Notes: generated from the letters alone by a model not told the origin. Positions 6,551-46,946 are shown, numbered from the stretch's first letter. The stretch is 64,000 nucleotides of DNA from Olsenella porci (GCF_009695875.1 NZ_VUNC01000003.1:1-64000); one strand, 5' to 3'. Made by a program: numbers and translations.

Positions 6551-6627
6551 TGCGGGGTGGAGCAGTCTGGTAGCTCGCCGGGCTCATAACCCGGAGGTCG
6601 TTGGTTCAAATCCAGCCCCCGCGACCA
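6551..6627 (+). tRNA. tRNA-fMet (initiator, anticodon CAT)
   Basis: The 77-base cloverleaf has anticodon CAT in the loop CTCATAA and the three consecutive G-C pairs (CCGGG/CCCGG) in the anticodon stem that mark initiator tRNA. The acceptor ends do not form a Watson-Crick pair at 1-72 (T opposite G), also an initiator feature. The T-arm GTTGG-TTCAAAT-CCAGC is intact and the 3' CCA is encoded at 6625-6627. Confidence 0.95.
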
Positions 6628-6637
6628 AAACTAAGGT

Positions 6638-6669
6638 CCCAATTAGCAGAAATGCTGGTTGGGATTTTT
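6638..6669 (+). terminator. Rho-independent terminator of tRNA-fMet
   Basis: CCCAATTAGCA (6638-6648) pairs with TGCTGGTTGGG (6653-6663) through 11 pairs including two G-U, around a GAAA tetraloop, followed by ATTTTT. It begins 11 bases after the CCA end. Confidence 0.85.
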
Positions 6670-7200
6670 GTTATGTAGAGACTCTCCAAACAGCCCGTGG
6701 ACGGGGTCGCGTGAGGGGGAGGTGCTCGCACTTCTATTGGTTCGTAGCGACTGTGACTGTTGGGCGAGCTTGGACAGAACGGCCTTGATGGTTGACCGGT
6801 CCTCTATACGTGTGATGGCGAAGCTCCTCCTGCCTGCGTCCTTGAGCGACGCGACCACGAGGTGGCCCTAGGTTCCGTCCAAGATCAGGAAGCGGTCGTG
6901 GAACGAGGATGCGTGGCGCACCGTCAGCTCGGGGTACTGCGCGTTGAAGGCTTCGACGTCCCTCTCCGTTAGCTTGGCCTTTGGGTGGGTCCAGATGGTG
7001 GACGCCACGCCCTCGGCCTTCTTCGCCAAGATGTTGAGCGTGCCCGCATCCACGTAGCCGTCGATGAGGATGATGCCCTCCTTCGCGCGTTGCACGAGCG
7101 AGACCAGAAGCACGCATGCGTTGTAGACCTGGCCCTCGAAGAACACCCTCTGGCGGGGCTCCTCGTGCGCCCCCATGTAGTTGAAGACGCGCTCGAAGCG
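6643..7200 (-). pseudogene. ORF6N/PLD-like protein, interrupted and truncated
   Basis: The frame reads from about 7200 leftward as RFERVFNYMG..., FEGQVYNACVLLVSLVQRAK, EGIILIDGYVDAGTLNILAK, FHDRFLILDGT, then hits an in-frame TAG at 6868-6870 and continues in the same frame as GHLVVASLKDAGRRSFAITRIE. This is the C-terminal phospholipase-D-like part seen in ORF6N-domain (phage antirepressor-like) proteins. The N-terminal ORF6N DNA-binding domain is missing: upstream of about 7200 the frame enters sequence that reads as an antitoxin on the other strand. One stop plus one truncation indicates decay. The region downstream of about 6740 is probably not part of the original gene, since it runs into the tRNA terminator. 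Confidence 0.65.
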
Positions 7201-7296
7201 CTCGCCGCATCGGCACGTGAGTCGGCGGCAACGGGAAAGGCCGATGTTTACGACGACGTTGAGGACCTCATTGCAGACTTGCACAAGGCAGTCTAG
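7197..7296 (+). pseudogene. Antitoxin C-terminal remnant
   Basis: About 33 residues (ALAASARESAATGKADVYDD followed by VEDLIADLHKAV) end with TAG at 7294-7296, directly abutting the ATG of the toxin-like frame at 7297. Composition and position fit the C-terminal half of a RelB/DinJ-type antitoxin. The upstream part is lost where the ORF6N-type fragment joins near 7197. Identification rests mainly on the toxin next door. Confidence 0.45.
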
Positions 7297-7556
7297 ATGG
7301 CTTATCGCCTCCAACTTGAGAAGCAATTCATCAAGCGATACTCCAAGCTTGCTCCAAAGGAGCGAGATATGGTTGACGCAAAGCTACGCATCCTTGCCCG
7401 TGACCCTTGGCATCCATCGCTGCGAACAAAGCGTATTCAAGGTACGGGGGGGTTGAGATCAGCGTGAACATGGACATCCGAATGACGATTTCCTTCGAAG
7501 GAGACAGGCTCATCGTCTTGCTTGACGTTGATCACCACGACAAGCCACTGAAGTGA
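7297..7556 (+). pseudogene. RelE/YafQ-family toxin with a frameshift at a G7 run
   Basis: From ATG 7297 the frame gives about 50 residues typical of RelE/ParE mRNA interferases (MAYRLQLEKQFIKRYSKL ..., DPWHPSLRTKRIQGT), then stops early at 7465-7467. In another frame, starting at the seven-G run 7446-7452, the expected C-terminal half follows (VEISVNMDIRMTISFEGDRL, then IVLLDVDHHDKPLK) and ends with TGA at 7554-7556. Adding one G (or removing two) would restore a standard-length toxin of about 86 residues. With the antitoxin also truncated, the module is most likely inactive. Confidence 0.7.
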
Positions 7557-9447: not shown

Positions 9448-11106
9448 CTACCTTTCGTTGAGCTCGGGCTCCCAGTCTGGTCCCAGGAGTGCGACGAGCT
9501 TGTCCGCGAGCAGCACCTGCATCATGTCGTCGGTGGCGTGGACGTCGATCCCGTACTCCTCGCGAATCCTTCCCACACGATACCTCACGGTCTTGGGGTG
9601 AACGTACAGTTGGTTGGCGGCCTCCTTGTAGTTGCACTCGCATTTGCAGAGGGTGATGAGGGTACGGAAGCCCTCGGGGCTTTCGCTGTGCAACCTGGAA
9701 AGGCGGGAGTCCATGTAGGAAGCCAGCTTGGAGGGGTCGCCAACGTCGACAAGGAACTTGTAGAATCCCAGGTCGTCGTACCGCACGCAACGGTTTGACA
9801 GCTGGTTTGAGTCGAACAGCCTGTAGATCGACAGCACCTGGTCGTTAGCCTTGGGAATTGAGTACCGGTCCTCGTGCCCCGAGAGGACGATGAGATGGGC
9901 GAAGTCGGGGAGGCCCGCGTCGGCATGCATCTCACCCAAGATGCGAGTCACCTCCCCCGCGTCGAACCCGACGGAGCCTGACGTGTGGTTACGCAGGAAG
10001 GACAGTCGGTTGTTGCCCTCGAAGAAGACCGAGTTGGGATAGAGCCTGCGGACCCTCCTTCGAAACGTGAGAAGCAGGTCTCCAATCCTATCGGATTCCA
10101 TCGGGTCGTCGATCGAGAGGCGAACGAGCATCACCTGGTAGAGCGCATGGGCGCCAATGCCCAGCTCCGACACCGCCTGATCAATCTCGTCGTGCGAAGT
10201 GAACCTCCCCTGGATGAGGTCGTGAACCAGCATGTTGTTGCGGTTGTACAGCCTTTGGTCAATCGCCTCCTGCTTGAGGAGCTCGATCATCAGCAGGTTA
10301 ACGAAGTTCTCGATGGTCATCCTCTGGAAGGCGGAGACGTCCTCTGGCTTTCTGTGGGCAATGAGGTAGCAGGACGTGAGCGACTGGCTGGGAATCCGCA
10401 CAGCAAGGCCAGACCCCATCGTGCCGCCCCGATAGCCAAGGGCTGCCTCGAAGTAGCGATAGCCCTGGTAGCCCTGCTCTGGGAGCTCCTCAAGATGCAA
10501 CGAGCTCCAACCGCTCGCGCCCTCGCTCGTCCCGACCCGCGCATCCTCCACCCTGTTCACAAAGGTCACGTCACACCCGATGTTCTCTCTCAGCTGTGAC
10601 ACGACCTGATAGATGCTCGGCTGCTGTATGGCAAGCCGCATCGTCTTCAGGTGCATGTCGTAAAAGCTGTCGAGGAGACGGGCGTTGGAGTCGATGACCG
10701 TACCCATAACGTCCATGAGCACGTCCTCAAACGTGACGCTGGGATCCATGCGGACAAGCGGCATCGCTATTGCCTCGCAGGTGTCGCGGCAGGATGAGAG
10801 CAGGTCGGGAGAGGTCCTGCCCGGCTTGTAGATGATTCCCGCAATCCCAAGGTTGCGGATGGTGGAGAAGAACTCGTCCCTCTGAGCGGGGGAGAGGGGG
10901 ACCAGCGCGAAGAAGCTGGTGACGAGCACGAGGCCGGGCCGACCCCACTTCTGGACGTCGGGTCCCTCCATGACCATTGCATTGGTGACCTCGCGGTCGA
11001 GTCCGGAAGAGCCGGCAAGGAGGGAGGCTCCCTCGAGGGGGCGAAGCTGAAGGACGTCCCGCATCGTCATTTGCCGTGAGTCCTGCTCTCGCGTTTTGCC
11101 GTCCAT
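9448..11106 (-). CDS. PucR-family transcriptional regulator
   Basis: The 552-residue protein has the PucR architecture: N-terminal purine-catabolism-regulator-like domain (residues about 13-125, MTMRDVLQLRPLEGASLLAG onward), a middle GGDEF-like region, and a C-terminal PucR-type helix-turn-helix (CNYKEAANQLYVHPKTVRYR, near 490-510). PucR proteins activate purine and allantoin degradation genes in Bacillus. Start 11106 is chosen for AAGGGGCGAG just upstream; an ATG 20 codons earlier has no ribosome site. It diverges from the fused FdrA-DUF1116 gene and is the obvious candidate controller of that cluster. Confidence 0.88.
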   Translation of the reverse strand: MDGKTREQDSRQMTMRDVLQLRPLEGASLLAGSSGLDREVTNAMVMEGPDVQKWGRPGLVLVTSFFALVPLSPAQRDEFFSTIRNLGIAGIIYKPGRTSPDLLSSCRDTCEAIAMPLVRMDPSVTFEDVLMDVMGTVIDSNARLLDSFYDMHLKTMRLAIQQPSIYQVVSQLRENIGCDVTFVNRVEDARVGTSEGASGWSSLHLEELPEQGYQGYRYFEAALGYRGGTMGSGLAVRIPSQSLTSCYLIAHRKPEDVSAFQRMTIENFVNLLMIELLKQEAIDQRLYNRNNMLVHDLIQGRFTSHDEIDQAVSELGIGAHALYQVMLVRLSIDDPMESDRIGDLLLTFRRRVRRLYPNSVFFEGNNRLSFLRNHTSGSVGFDAGEVTRILGEMHADAGLPDFAHLIVLSGHEDRYSIPKANDQVLSIYRLFDSNQLSNRCVRYDDLGFYKFLVDVGDPSKLASYMDSRLSRLHSESPEGFRTLITLCKCECNYKEAANQLYVHPKTVRYRVGRIREEYGIDVHATDDMMQVLLADKLVALLGPDWEPELNER

Positions 11107-11404
11107 CTCGCCCCTTAGCACCGCTCCGTTTCCGCATCGGTCCCTTTTACAGAATGAAAACGGCATGAAAACGAATATTCATAAACAAAAATGCAAGTCT
11201 ACCTCATGAACTTTACCGATAGACCCACAAAAAGACATTTCCCAATTGGGACAAGAATTGGCTCCAAGGTTATCCCCCGGTTGAAAAGACCTGGGCACAT
11301 CGATGGAAGAGACTTGGCGCGAGACAAGACGCAGGGCTTGGCCGCCCCTGCGTGCAAGGTCAGGAACATCGTTGTGCGATGCGACGCAACCGAGGAGGTT
11401 ACCC
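11107..11404. promoter_or_regulatory. Divergent promoter region, pucR-type gene / FdrA fusion
   Basis: The 298 bases between the two divergent starts contain no gene. An AT-rich block at about 11150-11255 probably holds both promoters. The strong ribosome site GAGGAGG for the FdrA fusion lies at 11391-11397. No convincing operator palindrome was picked out by eye. Confidence 0.4.
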
Positions 11405-14400
11405 ATGCTCCAGACAGTCGTGAAGAAGAACAGCTATCAGGACTCGATCAACCTCATGCTGCTCACCAACGCAATCAATGCGCTTGAGGGCGTGAACAAG
11501 TCCCAGATCATGATGGGGACGGATGCGAACAAGGACATCTTCAAGAATTCCGGGCTGCTCACCCCGGAGGCGGAGGCAGCAGACCCCAGCGACATGGTCA
11601 TCGTTGTTGACTCCGACTCAGCCGACGTCCTAGACCTGGTGCTCGACAAAACCGAGGAGTTCCTCTCCGACCTCTCCGTGAAGCACGAGGCCTCCGGCCT
11701 GAAGGAGGTCGACTGCTGGGATGACGCCCTCGAGGAGCTGCCCGACGCAAACCTGGCGCTCTTCTCGACGCCAGGCGAGTACACCGCCCCAGAGATCGAG
11801 AAGGCGCTCGACCGTGGCCTCAACGTGTTCTCGTTCTCCGACAACATCTCGCTTGAGGACGAGGTTCGCCTCAAGCAGAAGGCGCACGAGAAGGGCCTCA
11901 TGCTCATGGGCCCCGACTGTGGCACGGGCGTCATATCCTCCATTCCCATCGCGTTCACGAACGTGTCGAAGCCGGGGAACATCGGCATCGTCGGTGCGTC
12001 CGGAACCGGCATCCAGGAGGTTGCTGCAATCATCGACCGCTTGGGCGGTGGCCTGATCCATGCCATCGGAACGGGTGGTCGCGACCTCAGCAGCGAGGTG
12101 GGGGCCATCACGGTCAAGGATGCCATCGTCGGGCTCGAGAACCACGAGCCGACCGATGTGATCTGCGTCATCTCCAAGCCACCCGCGCCAGCCGTTCGCG
12201 ATGAGGTGGTCGATCTCCTGGAGAAGTGCTCCAAGCCGGTCGTTGCCATCTTCCTGGGAGAAAAGCCCACACATCACCTGGGCAAGGTCTATCTGGCTCA
12301 CACATTGGAAGAGACTGCCCACATCGCGGTGGACCTCGCCAACGGCAACCCTGTGAGGAAGAACTACCTCGAGCCGCTTGACTTCGAGTGCACCAACCCG
12401 CTTCCGGAGGAGAAGACCGTCATCGGGCTCTATTCCGGCGGAACCCTGGCAAACGAGGCGGGCATGCTCGTCTCCGAGGCGCTAGACCTCGGCGGCGTCG
12501 TGAAGGAGGACGGTTACATCCTCCATGCGAAGGGCTACGATGTCATCGACCTGGGCGACGACATCTACACCCAGGGCAAGCCGCATCCCATGATCGACCC
12601 TGAGGTCAGAATCGACTACATCCGCAAGTACGCCTCCATGCCCTCGACCGGCGTGATCCTCTTCGACTGCATGCTGGGCTATGGGTGCCATCCCGACATG
12701 GCGGGCGCACTTGCCCCGATTATCAGAGAGCAGCTGGACAAGGCGAAGGCCGAGGGTCGCGAGCTCTACTTCGTGGGTTCCGTTACCGGAACCGAGAACG
12801 ACCCGCAGGACTACCACAAGTCCTTCCAGGAGCTCCGCGATGCCGGGGCGATCATGGAGACCTCCAACGCACGCGCAATCCGCCTCGCCCTTGAGCTCAA
12901 GGGGATCCACTTCACCGAGGAGGACCGCGAGGTCGTGCCGTACGAGGTCAAGGACGATTCGCCCCTCCCCGAGCCCAGCCCGCAGCTGGTCGAGCTCCTC
13001 AACACCACGCCACGCATCATCAACGTGGGCGTCAAGAGCTTTAACGAGTCGCTGCGTGACTACGGTGCGAAGACCGTTCAGTTCAACTGGAAGCCGCTCG
13101 CCGGTGGCAACAAGCGGATGATTCACCTGCTTGACGAACTGGACAAGCGTCGCGATGAGATTGACGCAGCCAACGAGCGCATGATCGCGCGCTTCAGGGA
13201 GTCGCAGCCGTTCCTGGTGGACGTCGTCCCCGCAAAGACCGTCATCCCCGAGCTCAACCGCGCCCGCAAGACCCTGCTCCATGCCGGTCCTCCCATCACC
13301 TGGGAGAACATGATGGGCCCGATGAGGGGCTCCTGCATCGGCGCGGCTCTCTTTGAGGGTTGGGCTAACACCGAGGAGGAGGCGCTCGCGCTCCTCGAGT
13401 CCGGCGAGGTCGAGTTCATTCCTTGCCACCACTGCCACGCGGTTGGTCCCATGGGTGGCATCACCTCCGCGAACATGGCGGTGCTTGTGGTGGAGAACAA
13501 GGCTGACGACACCGTTGCCTACTGCACGATGAACGAGGGCATCGGCAAGGTCCTGCGCTTTGGCGCCTACAGCCAGGAGGTGGTCGACCGCCTTCACTGG
13601 ATGGCGGACGAGCTCGGCCCCGTGCTGGCAAAGGCACTTAAGCTCAAGGAGGGTGGAATCAACCTCTCCGTCCTCATCGCGCGCGCCATCACCCAGGGAG
13701 ACGAGTTCCACCAGCGCAACATGGCCGCCTCCCTCAACTTCCTCAAGGAGGTCGCGCCCCTCATCGTCAAGACCGACGTGGACGAGGACGCCAAGGAGCG
13801 CGTGATCCAGTTCCTGGCGGATACCGACCAGTTCTTCCTCAACGTGATGATGGCGACGGGCAAGTCCATAGTGGACTACGCACGTGAGGACGAGGAGAGC
13901 TGCATCGTCACGACGATGACCCGCAACGGCTACGAGTTTGGCGTCCGCATTGGCGCGTGCGGGGACGAGTGGTTTACCGCGCCCGTCAACACGCCGCACG
14001 GCCTGTACTTCACCGGCTTCACCGAGGATGACGCCTGTCCCGACAACGGAGACTCCGCAATCTGCGAGACCGTGGGCGTCGGTGGCATGGCCATGGTCGC
14101 CGCCCCCGGCGTGACCCGTTTCGTGGGTGCGGGCGGCTTTGAGGACGCCCTTAACATCTCGAACGAGATGGAGAGGATTTGCGTGTCGCATAACCCCAAC
14201 TGGACCATCCCGACCTGGGACTTCAAGGGCACCTGCCTTGGCATCGACATCCGAAAGGTGGTTGCCACGGGTATCACGCCGCTGATCAACACCGGCATCG
14301 CCCACAAGAAGGCGGGCCTGGGCCAGGTTGGCGCCGGAACGGTCAGGGCCCCGCTCGCCTGCTTCGAGAAGGCGCTCGAGGCGTACTGCGCGCGGCTTGG

Positions 14401-14410
14401 CATCGAGTAG
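11405..14410 (+). CDS. Fused FdrA (acyl-CoA synthetase-like) and DUF1116 (YlbE) protein, AllFG-like
   Basis: At 1001 residues this is about the sum of E. coli FdrA (AllF) and YlbE (AllG). Residues 1 to about 530 form the FdrA part: succinyl-CoA-synthetase-like Rossmann domain with GASGTG at 197-202 and GTGGRDLSSEVG at 222-233. From about residue 540 (NVGVKSFNES...) to the end it is DUF1116, with conserved CHHCHAVGPMGGITS and NTPHGLYFTGF blocks. In E. coli the separate AllF, AllG and AllH proteins are implicated in the oxamate carbamoyltransferase step of anaerobic allantoin use. The next gene encodes DUF2877 (AllH-like), so the full set is here. Start ATG 11405 follows GAGGAGG. No frameshift is seen; the fusion is real. 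Confidence 0.85.
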   Translation: MLQTVVKKNSYQDSINLMLLTNAINALEGVNKSQIMMGTDANKDIFKNSGLLTPEAEAADPSDMVIVVDSDSADVLDLVLDKTEEFLSDLSVKHEASGLKEVDCWDDALEELPDANLALFSTPGEYTAPEIEKALDRGLNVFSFSDNISLEDEVRLKQKAHEKGLMLMGPDCGTGVISSIPIAFTNVSKPGNIGIVGASGTGIQEVAAIIDRLGGGLIHAIGTGGRDLSSEVGAITVKDAIVGLENHEPTDVICVISKPPAPAVRDEVVDLLEKCSKPVVAIFLGEKPTHHLGKVYLAHTLEETAHIAVDLANGNPVRKNYLEPLDFECTNPLPEEKTVIGLYSGGTLANEAGMLVSEALDLGGVVKEDGYILHAKGYDVIDLGDDIYTQGKPHPMIDPEVRIDYIRKYASMPSTGVILFDCMLGYGCHPDMAGALAPIIREQLDKAKAEGRELYFVGSVTGTENDPQDYHKSFQELRDAGAIMETSNARAIRLALELKGIHFTEEDREVVPYEVKDDSPLPEPSPQLVELLNTTPRIINVGVKSFNESLRDYGAKTVQFNWKPLAGGNKRMIHLLDELDKRRDEIDAANERMIARFRESQPFLVDVVPAKTVIPELNRARKTLLHAGPPITWENMMGPMRGSCIGAALFEGWANTEEEALALLESGEVEFIPCHHCHAVGPMGGITSANMAVLVVENKADDTVAYCTMNEGIGKVLRFGAYSQEVVDRLHWMADELGPVLAKALKLKEGGINLSVLIARAITQGDEFHQRNMAASLNFLKEVAPLIVKTDVDEDAKERVIQFLADTDQFFLNVMMATGKSIVDYAREDEESCIVTTMTRNGYEFGVRIGACGDEWFTAPVNTPHGLYFTGFTEDDACPDNGDSAICETVGVGGMAMVAAPGVTRFVGAGGFEDALNISNEMERICVSHNPNWTIPTWDFKGTCLGIDIRKVVATGITPLINTGIAHKKAGLGQVGAGTVRAPLACFEKALEAYCARLGIE

Positions 14411-14450
14411 GCAAGTGGGAGGGGGCGAGACATATCGCCTGGCGCAGGGC

Positions 14451-15260
14451 ATGGTGAGCGACTATGCCCTCGCCAGGCTCGCCTCTCCGGCTGAGGGCGT
14501 GGTCCACAGCGTCTTCCGCTCGAGCCTCAACGTCTCGCTGCCAGGCATTCTCCTCCACGTGGGACCCATCTCCTCTGGGCTCTCGGTGCTCGGCATCGCC
14601 CTTCCGGACGAGATGGCAGAGAGGTTCGTGCGCTCGGTTCGCGTTGGTGGTCTCGTCCGGCTTGGCGACGGGGCGCTGGGCATCTGGTGCCAGGGAGGCG
14701 TGACTCGAATCAACCTTCGGGGCCTCGAGGAGCTCCCCTGCAAGGTCGATCGGCTGAGGGGGGCGGAGGCGGTGGGGCTGTGCGACCTCCTGCAGTCGAT
14801 GGGCCTGGAGGGTCGGTTGGGCATCCCCCCGACAGGGGAGTTCGACCGGGTTGCGAAGATCCTCTCGCATGGCATTTTCGCAGACGAGGAGTCGATGGGA
14901 TGTCTGCGGTGGCTTCTTGGACGGGGGAGGGGATTGACCCCCTCCGGCGACGACGTCCTGGTTGGGTATGGCATCGGCTCCCTCATGACGGGCAATGCAG
15001 AGCCCTTCCTGAGCCTGGTACGGCAGCTCGACCTCAGCCGCACCACGGCGGTGAGCGCGGCGTACCTGGGGGCGATGATGGACCGCTTTGCGAACTACGA
15101 CTATCGGTTGCTCGCCGATCGTCTCGGGCGAGATGACCTCGAGGGGGCGAGGGAGGTCCTTGATGGGCTCCTCCGCTACGGGGCGACCTCCGGTGCTGAC
15201 GGGTTGTTTGGCATGAGGCTCGCATTGGAGTCCGCCCTACGCAACCAGGTGGACGGCTAG
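14451..15260 (+). CDS. DUF2877 protein (YlbF/AllH-like)
   Basis: The DUF2877 signature GRGLTPSGDDVLVG is near residues 157-170 and the C-terminal GATSGADGLFG near 243-253 matches the conserved GHSSGxDxLxG block. In E. coli the neighbour of fdrA-ylbE is ylbF (allH), whose product works with AllF/AllG in oxamate carbamoyl transfer; the same order is kept here. The start is uncertain: ATG 14451 gives 269 residues but has only a weak ribosome site; GTG 14415, five bases after the preceding stop, is an alternative. No carbamate kinase gene, the usual energy-yielding partner, is found nearby. Confidence 0.8.
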   Translation: MVSDYALARLASPAEGVVHSVFRSSLNVSLPGILLHVGPISSGLSVLGIALPDEMAERFVRSVRVGGLVRLGDGALGIWCQGGVTRINLRGLEELPCKVDRLRGAEAVGLCDLLQSMGLEGRLGIPPTGEFDRVAKILSHGIFADEESMGCLRWLLGRGRGLTPSGDDVLVGYGIGSLMTGNAEPFLSLVRQLDLSRTTAVSAAYLGAMMDRFANYDYRLLADRLGRDDLEGAREVLDGLLRYGATSGADGLFGMRLALESALRNQVDG

Positions 15261-15290: not shown

Positions 15291-16529
15291 ATGGCAGAGA
15301 CGAAGAAGAAGGTATCGTCTACGACCTGGATCGTGCTATCCATGGTCCTGGGTGTCATTGCTGGATTCGTCATCGGCGAGCCGATGACCCAGGTCAAGTT
15401 CATCGGCGACATCTTCTTCCATCTGGTGCAGATGGGCATCATCCCGTTCGTGATGTGCACCATCATCGAGGCGGTCGGCGCGCTCGACGCGAAGGCCCTC
15501 TCGGGCTACGGCCTCAAGGGCATTGCCTGGTTCGCCGGGTCGTCCCTCCTCGCGGCTGGAATCGGCCTCGTTCTTGCGGTGATCATCCAGCCTGGTGCAG
15601 GCATCGCCGCGGCGTCCGCCGCCGTCGACTACGAGGCCTCCAACGTCACGTTCCAGGACACCATCTCCGGGTTCTTTGGGTCAAACATCGTGTCCTCCAT
15701 GAGCGAAGGCTCCATGGTCCAGTGCATCGTGTTCGCGATTGCCCTCGGTCTCGCCTGCTCCGCGTGGCGTAGGGCCCACGACAACGAGTGCCTCGTCTAC
15801 GACGTGTGCAGTCAGCTCTCTAAGCTCATCCTGAACATCATCCGTGGCGTCATGAAGATCGCCCCGATCGGCATCTTCTGCTACGTGGGAGCGATGATTG
15901 GCAGCCTCGGCCTTGCCGTCCTCATCCCCGTTGCCATGTACCTTCTCGTCATGCTCATTGCAGTTGTGATCATGTTCGCCATCTGGATCGCGCTGGTCTC
16001 CGTGCGCTGCCACTACAACCCCGTCAAGCTCATCCAGAAGATGTGGCCGATGAGCGCGCTCGCCCTTGGCACGATTTCCTCCGCCGTCACGCTGCCCACC
16101 GCCCTCGAGGACACCAAGTCCAAGCTCGGTGCCGACCCCGAGATCGCCGACCTCCTCATGGCCCTCGGCATGCCGCTCAACTCCAACGGCGCTGCGATTC
16201 ACCTTGCCGTCACGGCCCTCACGATCGCCCAGATCTACGGTGTAGCCTTCGGCCCCGGCGAGTTGGTCTACGTGTGGGTCATCTCCTTCCTCCTCTCCCT
16301 GGCAAACGCGGTCTCGCCTGGCGCCTCGCTTGTCTCGATGACCATGATCGTTCCTCAGCTCGGCCTTCCCATGGAGTCGATCGCCATCTTCGCCGGGCTG
16401 GAGTACCCCACCGGTGCACTCCGTACGATCCTCAACGTCGACGGCGACGTCTACACCTGCCTCATGGTCTCCGCCAGCGAGGGGAAGCTCCACCCCGAGG
16501 TGTTCAACGGGGAGGAGAAGGCCGCCTAG
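15291..16529 (+). CDS. Dicarboxylate/amino acid:cation symporter (DAACS family)
   Basis: This 412-residue membrane protein belongs to the GltP/DctA family: about eight helices plus two hairpins. Family marks are the early MGIIPFVMCTIIEAVGAL stretch (near 43-60), the TISSAVTLPTALE hairpin motif (near 261-273) and GMPLNSNGAAIHLAV (near 295-309), which corresponds to the substrate/sodium site (usually GATINMDG; here PLNSNG). It probably imports a dicarboxylate or acidic amino acid with Na+ or H+. A ribosome site (GAAAGGTAGG) precedes ATG 15291, and only 30 bases separate it from the DUF2877 gene, so it likely belongs to the same operon. The changed substrate motif suggests an unusual ligand such as oxamate or a carbamoylated acid (inference). 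Confidence 0.87.
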   Translation: MAETKKKVSSTTWIVLSMVLGVIAGFVIGEPMTQVKFIGDIFFHLVQMGIIPFVMCTIIEAVGALDAKALSGYGLKGIAWFAGSSLLAAGIGLVLAVIIQPGAGIAAASAAVDYEASNVTFQDTISGFFGSNIVSSMSEGSMVQCIVFAIALGLACSAWRRAHDNECLVYDVCSQLSKLILNIIRGVMKIAPIGIFCYVGAMIGSLGLAVLIPVAMYLLVMLIAVVIMFAIWIALVSVRCHYNPVKLIQKMWPMSALALGTISSAVTLPTALEDTKSKLGADPEIADLLMALGMPLNSNGAAIHLAVTALTIAQIYGVAFGPGELVYVWVISFLLSLANAVSPGASLVSMTMIVPQLGLPMESIAIFAGLEYPTGALRTILNVDGDVYTCLMVSASEGKLHPEVFNGEEKAA

Positions 16530-16614: not shown

Positions 16615-17874
16615 ATGGCCAATCACGAAGTCGCTCGCTTTGGAAAGAAGTCCCCGACGAAGCTCATTGCTCTGTCAATGGTCGTTGGCTTCATCGCTGG
16701 CATGGTGGTCGGAAAGCCGATGGCGCAGGTGAAGTTCATCGGTGACATATTCTTCTCGCTCGTCCAGATGGGCATCATCCCGTTCGTGATGTGTACCATC
16801 ATCGAGGCGGTGGGTGGGCTGACGACCCGAGACCTGTCCGATGTGGGCCTCAAGGGCATCGTCTGGTTTGCGGTCTCGTCGATACTCGCCTCCGGGTTTG
16901 GCATCGCCACCACGCTACTGTTTCAACCTGGCGCTGGACTGGATGGGAGTGCGCTGGTGCAAGGTGCTTCGGCCAACACGGTCCAGGCATCAAGTGGCAC
17001 GTGGCAGGACACGGTGTCTGGATTCTTTGGCTCAAACATCGTCGCCTCGATGGGCGGCGGCTCAATGGTTCAGTGCATTGTCTTTGCCATAGCGCTCGGT
17101 CTCGTCTGCTCTGGCTGGCGGCAGATGCACGAGGGGCACTGTGTCGTGTACGACTTCTGCGTCGAGCTGGGCACCCTGCTCCTCTCCATCATCAGGGGTG
17201 TGATGACCGTCGCTCCGATAGGCATCTTTTGCTACGTGTCGGCAATGGTGGGGTCGCTTGGGGCGGAAGTGCTAATCCCCCTGCTCAAGTATCTGCTCGT
17301 ACTGGCGGGTACGGTTCTCGTCTTCACATGCGTATGGATTGTCGTCGTTTGCGTACGCTGCGGGCTTTCCCCAGTCGTGCTCGTCCACAAAATGTGGCGC
17401 ATGAGCGTGATGGCGCTCTCCACGACCTCAAGTGCGGTGACGCTTCCCGTGGAGATGGAGGACGCCAAGCAACGGCTTGGCATTCGTTCTGACATCGCGG
17501 ACCTCGTGCTTCCGCTGGGCATGCCGCTCAACTCAAACGGAGCCTCGATTCACCTTGCCGTGACTGCGCTTACCATCTCTCAGATCTATGGGGTCACGTA
17601 TGGTGGGGCGGAGCTTGTCTCGCTTGCAGTCATCTGCACGCTTCTCTCGTTGGCCAATGCCGTCGCCCCTGGTGCAGACCTTGTGTCCCTTGCGATGATC
17701 GTTCCCCAGCTGGGTCTGCCCCTGGACAGCATTGGCATCTTCGCCGGACTGACGTACCCGGTTGGTGCTATCAGGACGATCCTCAACGTCGACTCGGACG
17801 TGTACTGCGCCCTCATGGTCGCCGCGAACTACGAGGACGGAATCGATCGGGAGGTCTTCGAGGCGAGGAACTAG
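16615..17874 (+). CDS. Second DAACS symporter, paralogue of the preceding gene
   Basis: The 419-residue protein is closely similar to the 412-residue symporter just upstream, sharing VKFIGDIFFSLVQMGIIPFV, the GSMVQCIVFAIALGL block and GMPLNSNGASIHLAVTALTI, so the pair arose by tandem duplication. The main differences are a variable extracellular loop (near residues 100-125) and several helix residues, suggesting a shifted affinity or substrate. ATG 16615 follows GGTGAGGTGGAGAC. A terminator sits between the paralogues, so this copy may be read at a lower level or from its own promoter. Codon use is slightly less biased than in the first copy. Confidence 0.87.
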   Translation: MANHEVARFGKKSPTKLIALSMVVGFIAGMVVGKPMAQVKFIGDIFFSLVQMGIIPFVMCTIIEAVGGLTTRDLSDVGLKGIVWFAVSSILASGFGIATTLLFQPGAGLDGSALVQGASANTVQASSGTWQDTVSGFFGSNIVASMGGGSMVQCIVFAIALGLVCSGWRQMHEGHCVVYDFCVELGTLLLSIIRGVMTVAPIGIFCYVSAMVGSLGAEVLIPLLKYLLVLAGTVLVFTCVWIVVVCVRCGLSPVVLVHKMWRMSVMALSTTSSAVTLPVEMEDAKQRLGIRSDIADLVLPLGMPLNSNGASIHLAVTALTISQIYGVTYGGAELVSLAVICTLLSLANAVAPGADLVSLAMIVPQLGLPLDSIGIFAGLTYPVGAIRTILNVDSDVYCALMVAANYEDGIDREVFEARN

Positions 17875-18070: not shown

Positions 18071-18319
18071 ATGATTTCGCGCAAGCAGGGGAGCCTTGGC
18101 AGAGATGTTCTCGCACCTTTCGAAGCTGCACTTTCCTTCGTGGAGCCTCGGGCAAAGATTGAAATCTGTCGTGACCCAGATGATGATAAGTTCCTGGAAT
18201 GTGCAATAGATGCTCGTGCCGTTCATGTCGTGAGCGGGGATAAAGACCTTCTCGCAATAGGTAAGTACGAGGGTGTGGAAATCGTCACAGCCGCCGAGTT
18301 TTGCGAGAGGTACCTGTAG
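18071..18319 (+). pseudogene. PIN-domain toxin, C-terminal fragment
   Basis: The 82-codon frame ends like a PIN-family toxin: CRDPDDDKFLECAIDARAVH followed by VVSGDKDLLAIGKYEGVEIV and a final AEFCERYL. The two Asp clusters (DPDDDKF and SGDKDL) are the second half of the PIN nuclease site. The N-terminal 50-60 residues with the first catalytic Asp (normally xxDTNVLVSA) are missing, and no antitoxin gene is seen upstream. It is therefore a remnant of a VapC-like toxin-antitoxin pair. Confidence 0.65.
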
Positions 18320-45493: not shown

Positions 45494-46228
45494 ATGAGTT
45501 CAAGAGAGAAGATTGCTGAACTTATCCAATCTTTCATCATTGAGAACAAGCTCCAGCCAGGGGACAGGCTTCCATCGGAGCGTGAGCTGTGCGAAATCTG
45601 GGGCGTCAATAGGATGACGCTCCGAAACGCAATCAAACGCCTCGAGGACCTCGGCGTTCTAGAGAGCAAGGTTGGGCTTGGCACGTTCGTCGCCAAGCCC
45701 AGGATTGTCCGAAACCTACAGGATACGCTGGGGTTCTCTGATGCCGTCCATGCAGCGGGTGGGGAGCTGACGCGAGAGGTGGTCTTCTGCAAGCTCGTTG
45801 AGGCTAACAAATTTGCGGTCAAGCACCTTCACGTCATGCTCGCCTCGCCCGTTCTCGCCCTGACTCGTGTCGGTAGCGTCAACGGTGAGAAGGCGGCGAT
45901 GGAGAGCGTTTTGGTCAATGCTCGAAATTGCGAGGGGATAGAAGAGCATGACTATTCGAAGGAGTCCCTGTACGGTGTGCTCAGGGACTCCTACGGGATT
46001 ATCGCTGACCACGGGTCGGAGAAAATCGATGTTACCTCCCTCTCCGAGGATGAGGCGGACCTGCTTGGGTATCCGGTGGGTACCGCCGCGTTCTTTCAGG
46101 AGGGGCTGATGCTCAACCAGGAGGGAAACCCCCTGGAGTACTTCATGAACGTGATACTACCCAAGAGAATCATCCTCGGCTCAGAGATGAGGCCATTTGC
46201 GGGCATGGGGGAATTTGACAATGCATGA
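45494..46228 (+). CDS. GntR-family regulator with UTRA domain (HutC subfamily)
   Basis: The 244-residue regulator has an N-terminal winged helix (residues about 3-68, LPSERELCEIWGVNRMTLRN being the recognition region) and a C-terminal UTRA ligand-binding domain (about 88-235), the layout of HutC/FrlR-type repressors that sense sugars or glycated amines. It is transcribed with a second GntR-UTRA gene, whose start overlaps its stop by 8 bases. It is a candidate to bind the 23-bp motif found upstream of island operons. The ribosome site is weak. Confidence 0.88.
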   Translation: MSSREKIAELIQSFIIENKLQPGDRLPSERELCEIWGVNRMTLRNAIKRLEDLGVLESKVGLGTFVAKPRIVRNLQDTLGFSDAVHAAGGELTREVVFCKLVEANKFAVKHLHVMLASPVLALTRVGSVNGEKAAMESVLVNARNCEGIEEHDYSKESLYGVLRDSYGIIADHGSEKIDVTSLSEDEADLLGYPVGTAAFFQEGLMLNQEGNPLEYFMNVILPKRIILGSEMRPFAGMGEFDNA

Positions 46229-46946
46229 GATTGACGAGAACTCACCAATATTCATGCAGCTGCGCGAGGTGGTGCGAGAGCGCATCACGACGGGGGAGTA
46301 TGCTCCCGGAGTCGCGATTCCCTCGGAGAACGCGCTTGCCCAGACGTATGGAATCAATCGCCTCACCGTGAGGAGCGCCCTGGATGGGCTTGTGAAGGAG
46401 GGGCTTCTCAAGCGGATCCAGGGGAAGGGCGTCTTTGTCGTTGGTAAGCGCATCGAGCGAAACCTCGACTACCTAACCGGCTTCCACAAGGCCATCGAGG
46501 GGGGCATGTCAAACCCCTATGTCAAGATTCTCGAGAAGGAGAGGAGACGCGCCGGCTATCTCTATGCCCATGAACTTGGGATTTCCCCCGATGATGACGT
46601 CTTCTTCATCAAGAGGCTTTGCTATGCCGACGGGAAGCCCATTTCCCTTGAGTCCGTATATGTCCCATGCGAGCTCTTCCCAAACCTCATGGACGTCGAC
46701 CTCGAGGTGTTCTCGCTCCAAGATGTGTACGGCTTCTACGGGTCGTCTCCTGATCGTGCGTGGCAGACGCTGGATATCGTCTCTGCTGAACCGAAGATGG
46801 CACGCATGCTCGAGCTTGGGGAGAACAGGAACGTGCTCCTCTTTACCTGCTACACCTATCGGGCTGATGGCAGGACGATTGAGTACATGCAGTCCTACAA
46901 CAGGAGTGACTCCTGCTTCTTTACGGTCAAGGTGACGAACGGCTAG
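46221..46946 (+). CDS. Second GntR-family UTRA regulator
   Basis: The 241-residue protein has the GntR winged helix at about 8-72 (IPSENALAQTYGINRLTVRS) and a UTRA domain at about 90-235. It is clearly distinct from the GntR protein just upstream, and both have the full domain set, so they may respond to different ligands. ATG 46221 follows GGGGGAA and overlaps the upstream stop by 8 bases (translational coupling). A paired-regulator operon suits an island with several substrate modules. Confidence 0.88.
   Translation: MHEIDENSPIFMQLREVVRERITTGEYAPGVAIPSENALAQTYGINRLTVRSALDGLVKEGLLKRIQGKGVFVVGKRIERNLDYLTGFHKAIEGGMSNPYVKILEKERRRAGYLYAHELGISPDDDVFFIKRLCYADGKPISLESVYVPCELFPNLMDVDLEVFSLQDVYGFYGSSPDRAWQTLDIVSAEPKMARMLELGENRNVLLFTCYTYRADGRTIEYMQSYNRSDSCFFTVKVTNG

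Follow-up and report, generated by a model that had tools for sequence, protein, structure and literature searches.

Gene content of the locus

We analysed a 64,000-nucleotide stretch of the Olsenella porci genome (NZ_VUNC01000003.1:1-64000, G000:C9:1-64000 in our numbering; hereafter the window), which carries a gene cluster built around a fused AllF-AllG protein, with AllH, a PucR-type regulator, an alpha/beta-hydrolase and two carriers of the SDF/DAACS family (Table 1). The source genome is a 2.36-Mb draft. Most of this arrangement had been described in a first-pass annotation made from the sequence alone, and it stands: the FdrA-DUF1116 (AllF-AllG) fusion of 1001 residues is a single open reading frame with an ATG start, its AllH-like neighbour scores 62.7 bits against the Pfam AllH model (PF11392, cut-off 25), pucR diverges on the minus strand, and the carriers, two SDF-family proteins (PF00375, 301.8 and 287.7 bits against a cut-off of 27.9), both read PLNSNG at the motif it had singled out as altered. 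The hydrolase gene, absent from that annotation, shares the strand of pucR, starts 5 nucleotides after it and is part of the module.

Table 1. Features of the AllF-AllG locus, in window coordinates
Feature	Position	Strand	Remarks
Alpha/beta-hydrolase, 289 amino acids	8573..9442	-	Abhydrolase_3, E 1e-12; directly downstream of PucR
PucR-type transcriptional regulator	9448..11166	-	Pfam PucR, E 4e-20; HTH_30, E 4e-15; divergent from the fusion
Candidate operator, near-palindrome TTTCCCAATTGGGACAA	11238..11254	.	In the pucR-fusion intergenic region; expected number in the window 0.04
Fused AllF-AllG, 1001 amino acids	11405..14410	+	AllF about residues 1-579, AllG about 584-1001
AllH	14415..15260	+	Pfam AllH, E 6e-17; start uncertain, GTG 14415 or ATG 14451
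SDF/DAACS carrier 1	15291..16529	+	Pfam SDF, E 1e-89
SDF/DAACS carrier 2	16615..17874	+	Pfam SDF, E 2e-85; 63% identical to carrier 1
Position of carbamate kinase in relatives L002, L003, L038	17875..19303	.	Kinase absent here; only a PIN-domain fragment

The fusion and AllH as a predicted oxamic transcarbamylase

Residues 1-579 of the fusion match the NCBIfam FdrA family (NF004760, E 5e-198, 659 bits against a cut-off of 433) and residues 669-884 the Pfam AllG family (PF06545, E 7e-90, 300.7 bits against 27); with AllH, all three AllFGH subunits are found above their cut-offs. The two parts align end to end with the separate E. coli proteins (41% identity for AllF, 59% for AllG) and are joined by a near-zero linker, the AllF part ending at about residue 580 and the AllG part beginning a few residues on. 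In the predicted model each half matches its own solved single-gene homologue: the AllG half superimposes on 3clq over 411 residues (Z 50.4, root mean square deviation [rmsd] 2.0) and the AllF half on 3dmy over 416 (Z 37.9, rmsd 18.6). Because of the latter deviation, the placement of AllF relative to AllG in the model was set aside. A sequencing or frame artefact is excluded as the source of the fusion, because open frames of 1001 amino acids, 66-91% identical, recur in dozens of species, the proteins of Olsenella sp. kh2p3 and KH3B4 being 91% identical to ours.

The older annotation of FdrA as a succinyl-CoA or other acyl-CoA synthetase is not supported. The predicted AllF half does share the succinyl-CoA synthetase fold (2nu7, Z 19.1, rmsd 2.3 over 211 residues), but the loop that carries the phosphohistidine in the alpha subunit (GHAG in E. 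coli SucD) aligns with a gap both in the fusion and in E. coli AllF. AllF would thus retain an acyl-phosphate-forming core, used here for carbamoyl phosphate, without the nucleotide-dependent step. As for AllH, motifs of the GRGxGLTPSGDD and GHTSG types are conserved across 29 homologues, with similar stretches in E. coli AllH. Its predicted model (pLDDT 94.4) has no Foldseek match at E below 0.001, and its best VIA match, the L,D-transpeptidase 4jmn (Z 6.1, 77 residues, rmsd 2.8), falls within the range of common arrangements.

Oxamic transcarbamylase activity has been proven for purified E. coli AllFGH (PMC11326118), which bears out the link to oxamate and carbamoyl transfer drawn in the first-pass annotation. 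Fusions also occur in complete operons (L078, L083 and L084) with allantoinase (allB), permease (allW), allC, allE, allD, allH and carbamate kinase. Since these operons lie inside the fused clade described below, there is strong contextual support for the same activity throughout this clade, whose members are almost certainly oxamic transcarbamylases. By family membership, and with three subunits and a kinase present, the window enzyme is a predicted oxamic transcarbamylase in a shortened, carrier-fed form.

Distribution and ancestry of the fusion

A genome scan for the fused protein recovered 48 related loci, almost all of which encode fusions of 1000 amino acids. They come from Olsenella, Collinsella, Enorma, Enterococcus, Tetragenococcus, Vagococcus, Lactobacillus, Streptococcus thoraltensis and others, and two of the 48 (Paenibacillus and Chromatiales) are split. 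In a class-wide draw of coriobacteria, AllG was found in 22 of 296 genomes (15 fused and 7 split, judged by open-frame length), and in Lactobacillales in 109 of 395, about 50 genomes having the fused form by table count. Such a spread in both groups rules out the fusion itself as the unusual feature of the locus; it is common and old. One Olsenella metagenome-assembled genome has, downstream of its fused gene, a second AllG copy that stands alone (L004:16526 onward; 65% identical).

The tree of AllG domains groups the 50 fused rows in one clade (support 100/90) that takes in just one split row, and is thus most simply read as the outcome of one fusion event. The early branches of this clade and its nearest split relatives are from Lactobacillales and Paenibacillus, the split coriobacterial genes being distant, which suggests that the fusion may have passed from Bacillota into coriobacteria.

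Carbamate kinase

The first-pass annotation had remarked that no carbamate kinase is near and that the product may be used differently. The observation holds, as none is encoded in the window (tblastn), but not what was drawn from it. The kinase directly follows the second carrier, as the last gene of the operon, in the close Olsenella relatives L002, L003 and L038, and the orthologue in our genome lies elsewhere (G000:C1:205436-206368; TIGR00746, 360.1 bits against a cut-off of 358.25, the only one in the genome above it). It is intact, stands alone among unrelated genes and shares 84% identity with the operon copy of L002, and in the kinase tree it falls within the coriobacterial clade of operon kinases from G181, G176 and G184, a placement that holds at the level of the clade and not of branching order. 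Carbamate kinase matches were found in 22 of 22 AllG genomes (above the curated cut-off in 19) and at 41 of the 48 loci. A changed chemistry through a missing kinase is ruled out by the orthologue and by this co-occurrence. In the gap where the relatives have their kinase, the window holds the C-terminal fragment of a PIN-domain gene (18071-18319; PF13470, positions 77-115 only).

The genome also has an arginine deiminase cluster (G000:C13:75250-77600, L169) with the deiminase, ornithine transcarbamylase and two transporter-like open reading frames. As this cluster is kinase-free, the lone kinase probably serves both the oxalurate and the arginine deiminase routes.

Pathway length and the upstream allantoin steps

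The coriobacterial loci fall into four nested types, defined by the allantoin genes and carriers present at the locus. Type A (G178, G171, G273) has the entire allantoin operon and a permease, and SDF carriers were not found there. Type B (G169, G185) has AllC, AllE and AllD without allantoinase or permease, together with SDF and MFS carriers. In type C (G181, G080, G078, G155, G165, G173) AllD alone stands upstream and there are two SDF carriers; in type D (G176, G184, G246 and the window) the two SDF carriers remain and there is no AllD. SDF carriers are thus found in types B, C and D only, and PucR and the alpha/beta-hydrolase in all four. In the AllG tree, types C and D together make up a single clade of 14 rows (100/100).

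The first-pass annotation had proposed looking elsewhere in the genome for allantoin genes and carbamate kinase, and the outcome was mixed: the kinase was found, and AllB, AllC and AllD were not (absence from this genome being stated here for the families actually searched). AllC had no match, the best allantoinase match reaches 229 bits (below the 358-bit cut-off), and the sole Ldh_2 enzyme (G000:C11:171128) is ruled out as AllD by its 28% identity to the E. coli protein, versus 54-56% in AllD-bearing relatives. Related purine genes, whose absence that annotation took as counting against its proposal, are thus largely missing for the upstream steps, so that the reading shifts from allantoin use to oxalurate use. 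Because type D loci are without the upstream steps, the AllFGH substrate most likely enters from outside the cell as oxalurate. The unusual feature of the locus is the length of the pathway, not the fusion. The shortened pattern is not peculiar to coriobacteria: of 30 Lactobacillales genomes with the fusion, 14 have no Ldh_2 enzyme, among them the complete Enterococcus mundtii Pe161 chromosome.

Substrate residues of the carriers

Both carriers read PLNSNG where an aspartate transporter has INMDG. Among 58 related carriers, the NMDG of transmembrane segment 7 has become NSNG, with N310 kept in 57, M311 replaced by S in 58 and D312 by N in 56. In the aspartate transporter GltPh, aspartate is held by its amino group at D394 (transmembrane segment 8) and by its side-chain carboxylate at R397. 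The D394 position is Gly in both window carriers (Gly in 51 of the 58, Ala in 5, a gap in 2), so neither has the amino-group aspartate expected of a glutamate/aspartate transporter, and R397 is retained in 55 of the 58. With D394 lost and R397 kept, the site fits an acid without an amino group. The carriers may take up oxalurate and export oxamate, or exchange the two.

Five loci of the Enterococcus raffinosus/pallens group (L023, L030, L031, L032, L048) have, between the kinase and AllH, an amidohydrolase and a 451-amino-acid membrane protein without Pfam match, which stand in for the MFS and SDF carriers. The enzyme of this group is perhaps fed by a different cyclic ureide.

Alpha/beta-hydrolase and candidate operator

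The hydrolase adjoins PucR in 44 of the 48 related loci, PucR itself being present in 45. A search of the 296 coriobacterial genomes (E below 1e-15) found it in 15/15 genomes with the fusion, 1/7 with split AllG and 1/274 without AllG; the exceptions are G138, where it lies beside the split AllG, and G094, an AllG-negative genome with a partial match. The contrast between fused and AllG-negative genomes has a Fisher p of 4e-24, a value that overstates independence because the genomes are related. HGGG, GRSxG (S125), D247 and H274 are invariant in 50 aligned homologues, as are R124, R199 and Y203 (numbering of the 300-amino-acid query, whose residue 12 is the ATG of the window gene). The closest relatives with a solved structure, 3h04 and 2qru, are both listed as uncharacterised. 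Because the hydrolase is kept when all upstream steps are gone, its substrate would be oxalurate, oxamate or a compound closely derived from them.

Sites of the form TTTYC-N-GGRNA, related to the near-palindrome of the window, precede AllF in 26 of 60 loci versus 0.9 expected in shuffles, the pattern being post hoc and the loci related. They sit about 105 nucleotides upstream of AllF in most Lactobacillales matches and 146-185 nucleotides upstream in coriobacteria. The window site, TTTCCCAATTGGGACAA, is a possible PucR operator. A promoter and terminator scan gave nothing exceeding chance. Elsewhere in the window we noted a tRNA-Met followed by an opposite-strand open reading frame of 152 amino acids without Pfam match, possibly truncated (6551-7326), and a tandem pair of GntR-like regulator frames in a sugar-metabolism region (45494-46946, recognised by eye from their start sequences).

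A proposed oxalurate-fermentation module and its alternatives

It seems to us probable, on balance, that the cluster is a stand-alone module for the fermentation of oxalurate. One or both carriers would import oxalurate or swap it for oxamate; AllFG and AllH would split it by phosphorolysis (oxalurate and inorganic phosphate giving oxamate and carbamoyl phosphate); and the single kinase, serving the arginine deiminase route as well, would convert carbamoyl phosphate and ADP to ATP, NH3 and CO2. PucR would sense the ureide and the hydrolase would work at the oxalurate/oxamate level, the overall plan being that of the arginine- and agmatine-deiminase fermentations. In this gut or rumen-type Olsenella, the compact set probably imports oxalurate, a purine breakdown product, for ATP and ammonia. 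More tentatively, and with the odds somewhat against it, the hydrolase could be an oxalurate-metabolising enzyme not recognised so far (one converting oxamate to oxalate and ammonia, say, or parabanate to oxalurate) that makes up, with the fusion and the SDF carriers, a self-contained fermentation by which anaerobes of the gut and rumen use a scavenged purine fragment, a parallel to arginine deiminase fermentation.

Several points weigh against the oxalurate module. The kinase is unlinked to the operon here, so that co-regulation is putative; free oxalurate in the habitat is likewise putative; the carrier substrate is read from two residues and gene context, and the roles of the proteins from their genes; AllH is poorly conserved (24-47% identity); and the genome is a draft of 15 contigs, 98.95% complete, with AllB, AllC and AllD as the upstream allantoin-route genes searched for genome-wide.

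The locus could instead be the tail of an allantoin/ureidoglycolate pathway, its upstream steps being carried out by non-homologous enzymes or another dehydrogenase of the cell and the carriers importing ureidoglycolate or allantoate. We regard this as unlikely: an AllD-type dehydrogenase is found in the operons of six coriobacterial relatives and the genome does have one other Ldh_2 enzyme, but the low identity of the latter to AllD, the lack of any Ldh_2 enzyme in the closest relatives G176 and G184, and the failure to find AllC and allantoinase all speak against it. Slightly less likely still is that the fusion acts as a transcarbamylase on some other ureido compound, oxamate and oxalurate being just a relic in the family name. 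Upstream genes do differ among loci, five enterococci having an amidohydrolase and another transporter in place of the carriers; against this, full allantoin operons occur in the same fused clade and the AllG half is close to the E. coli enzyme. That the cluster is a decaying remnant, its kinase and upstream genes lost and the rest without metabolic role, we consider very improbable; the kinase is gone from its usual place, where the PIN-domain fragment lies, but all genes are intact, the fusion is highly similar to those of relatives with many invariant residues, and an intact kinase orthologue exists elsewhere in the genome.

Comparison with known systems

In the literature searched, mostly outside subscription journals, the fusion, the hydrolase and the SDF carriers were not found described as parts of this system, and no description of the module was found in papers on Olsenella and allantoin or on oxamate/carbamate kinase, gut bacteria and uric acid. 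Within these sources, the shortened pathway and its constantly accompanying hydrolase are undescribed, the fusion itself being common. The hydrolase is a concrete candidate for a new enzyme, and oxalurate fermentation appears as a portable module running without the allantoin pathway. The fusion is also evidence for 1:1 contact of the AllF and AllG subunits, a point left unsettled by the 2024 E. coli study.

The closest characterised system is AllF-AllG-AllH with AllK in E. coli (PMC11326118), which has the same three families in the same order and a carbamate kinase partner in the genome. The window differs in the fused AllF-AllG, the missing AllB, AllC and AllD, the unlinked kinase and the SDF carriers, and has PucR and the alpha/beta-hydrolase instead of the E. 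coli all regulators. In Streptococcus (Enterococcus) faecalis, energy from oxalurate via oxamate transcarbamylase and carbamate kinase is known biochemically; according to two papers (PMC3282769, PMC6022934), which cite a 1986 study of the S. faecalis "oxalurate catabolic pathway", oxalurate is a fermentable energy source in enterococci, the transcarbamylase gene being then unidentified. The module supplies candidate genes for this fermentation, measured decades ago. Unlike the fused AllG of the window, the structurally solved AllG homologue of E. faecalis (3clq) is a protein on its own, 421 residues long.

Comammox bacteria and ammonia-oxidising archaea carry allFGHK without upstream purine genes, read as a means of scavenging the oxalurate of others (PMC12625717). 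These resemble the module in combining AllFGH and a kinase with no allantoin genes; they differ in lying beside biuret/triuret genes, and in the text searched there is no mention of a fusion and no SDF carriers are named. Arginine and agmatine deiminase operons share with the module the combination of carrier, catabolic transcarbamylase and carbamate kinase leading to ATP, their transcarbamylase being, unlike AllFG, of the classic ornithine/aspartate transcarbamylase fold.

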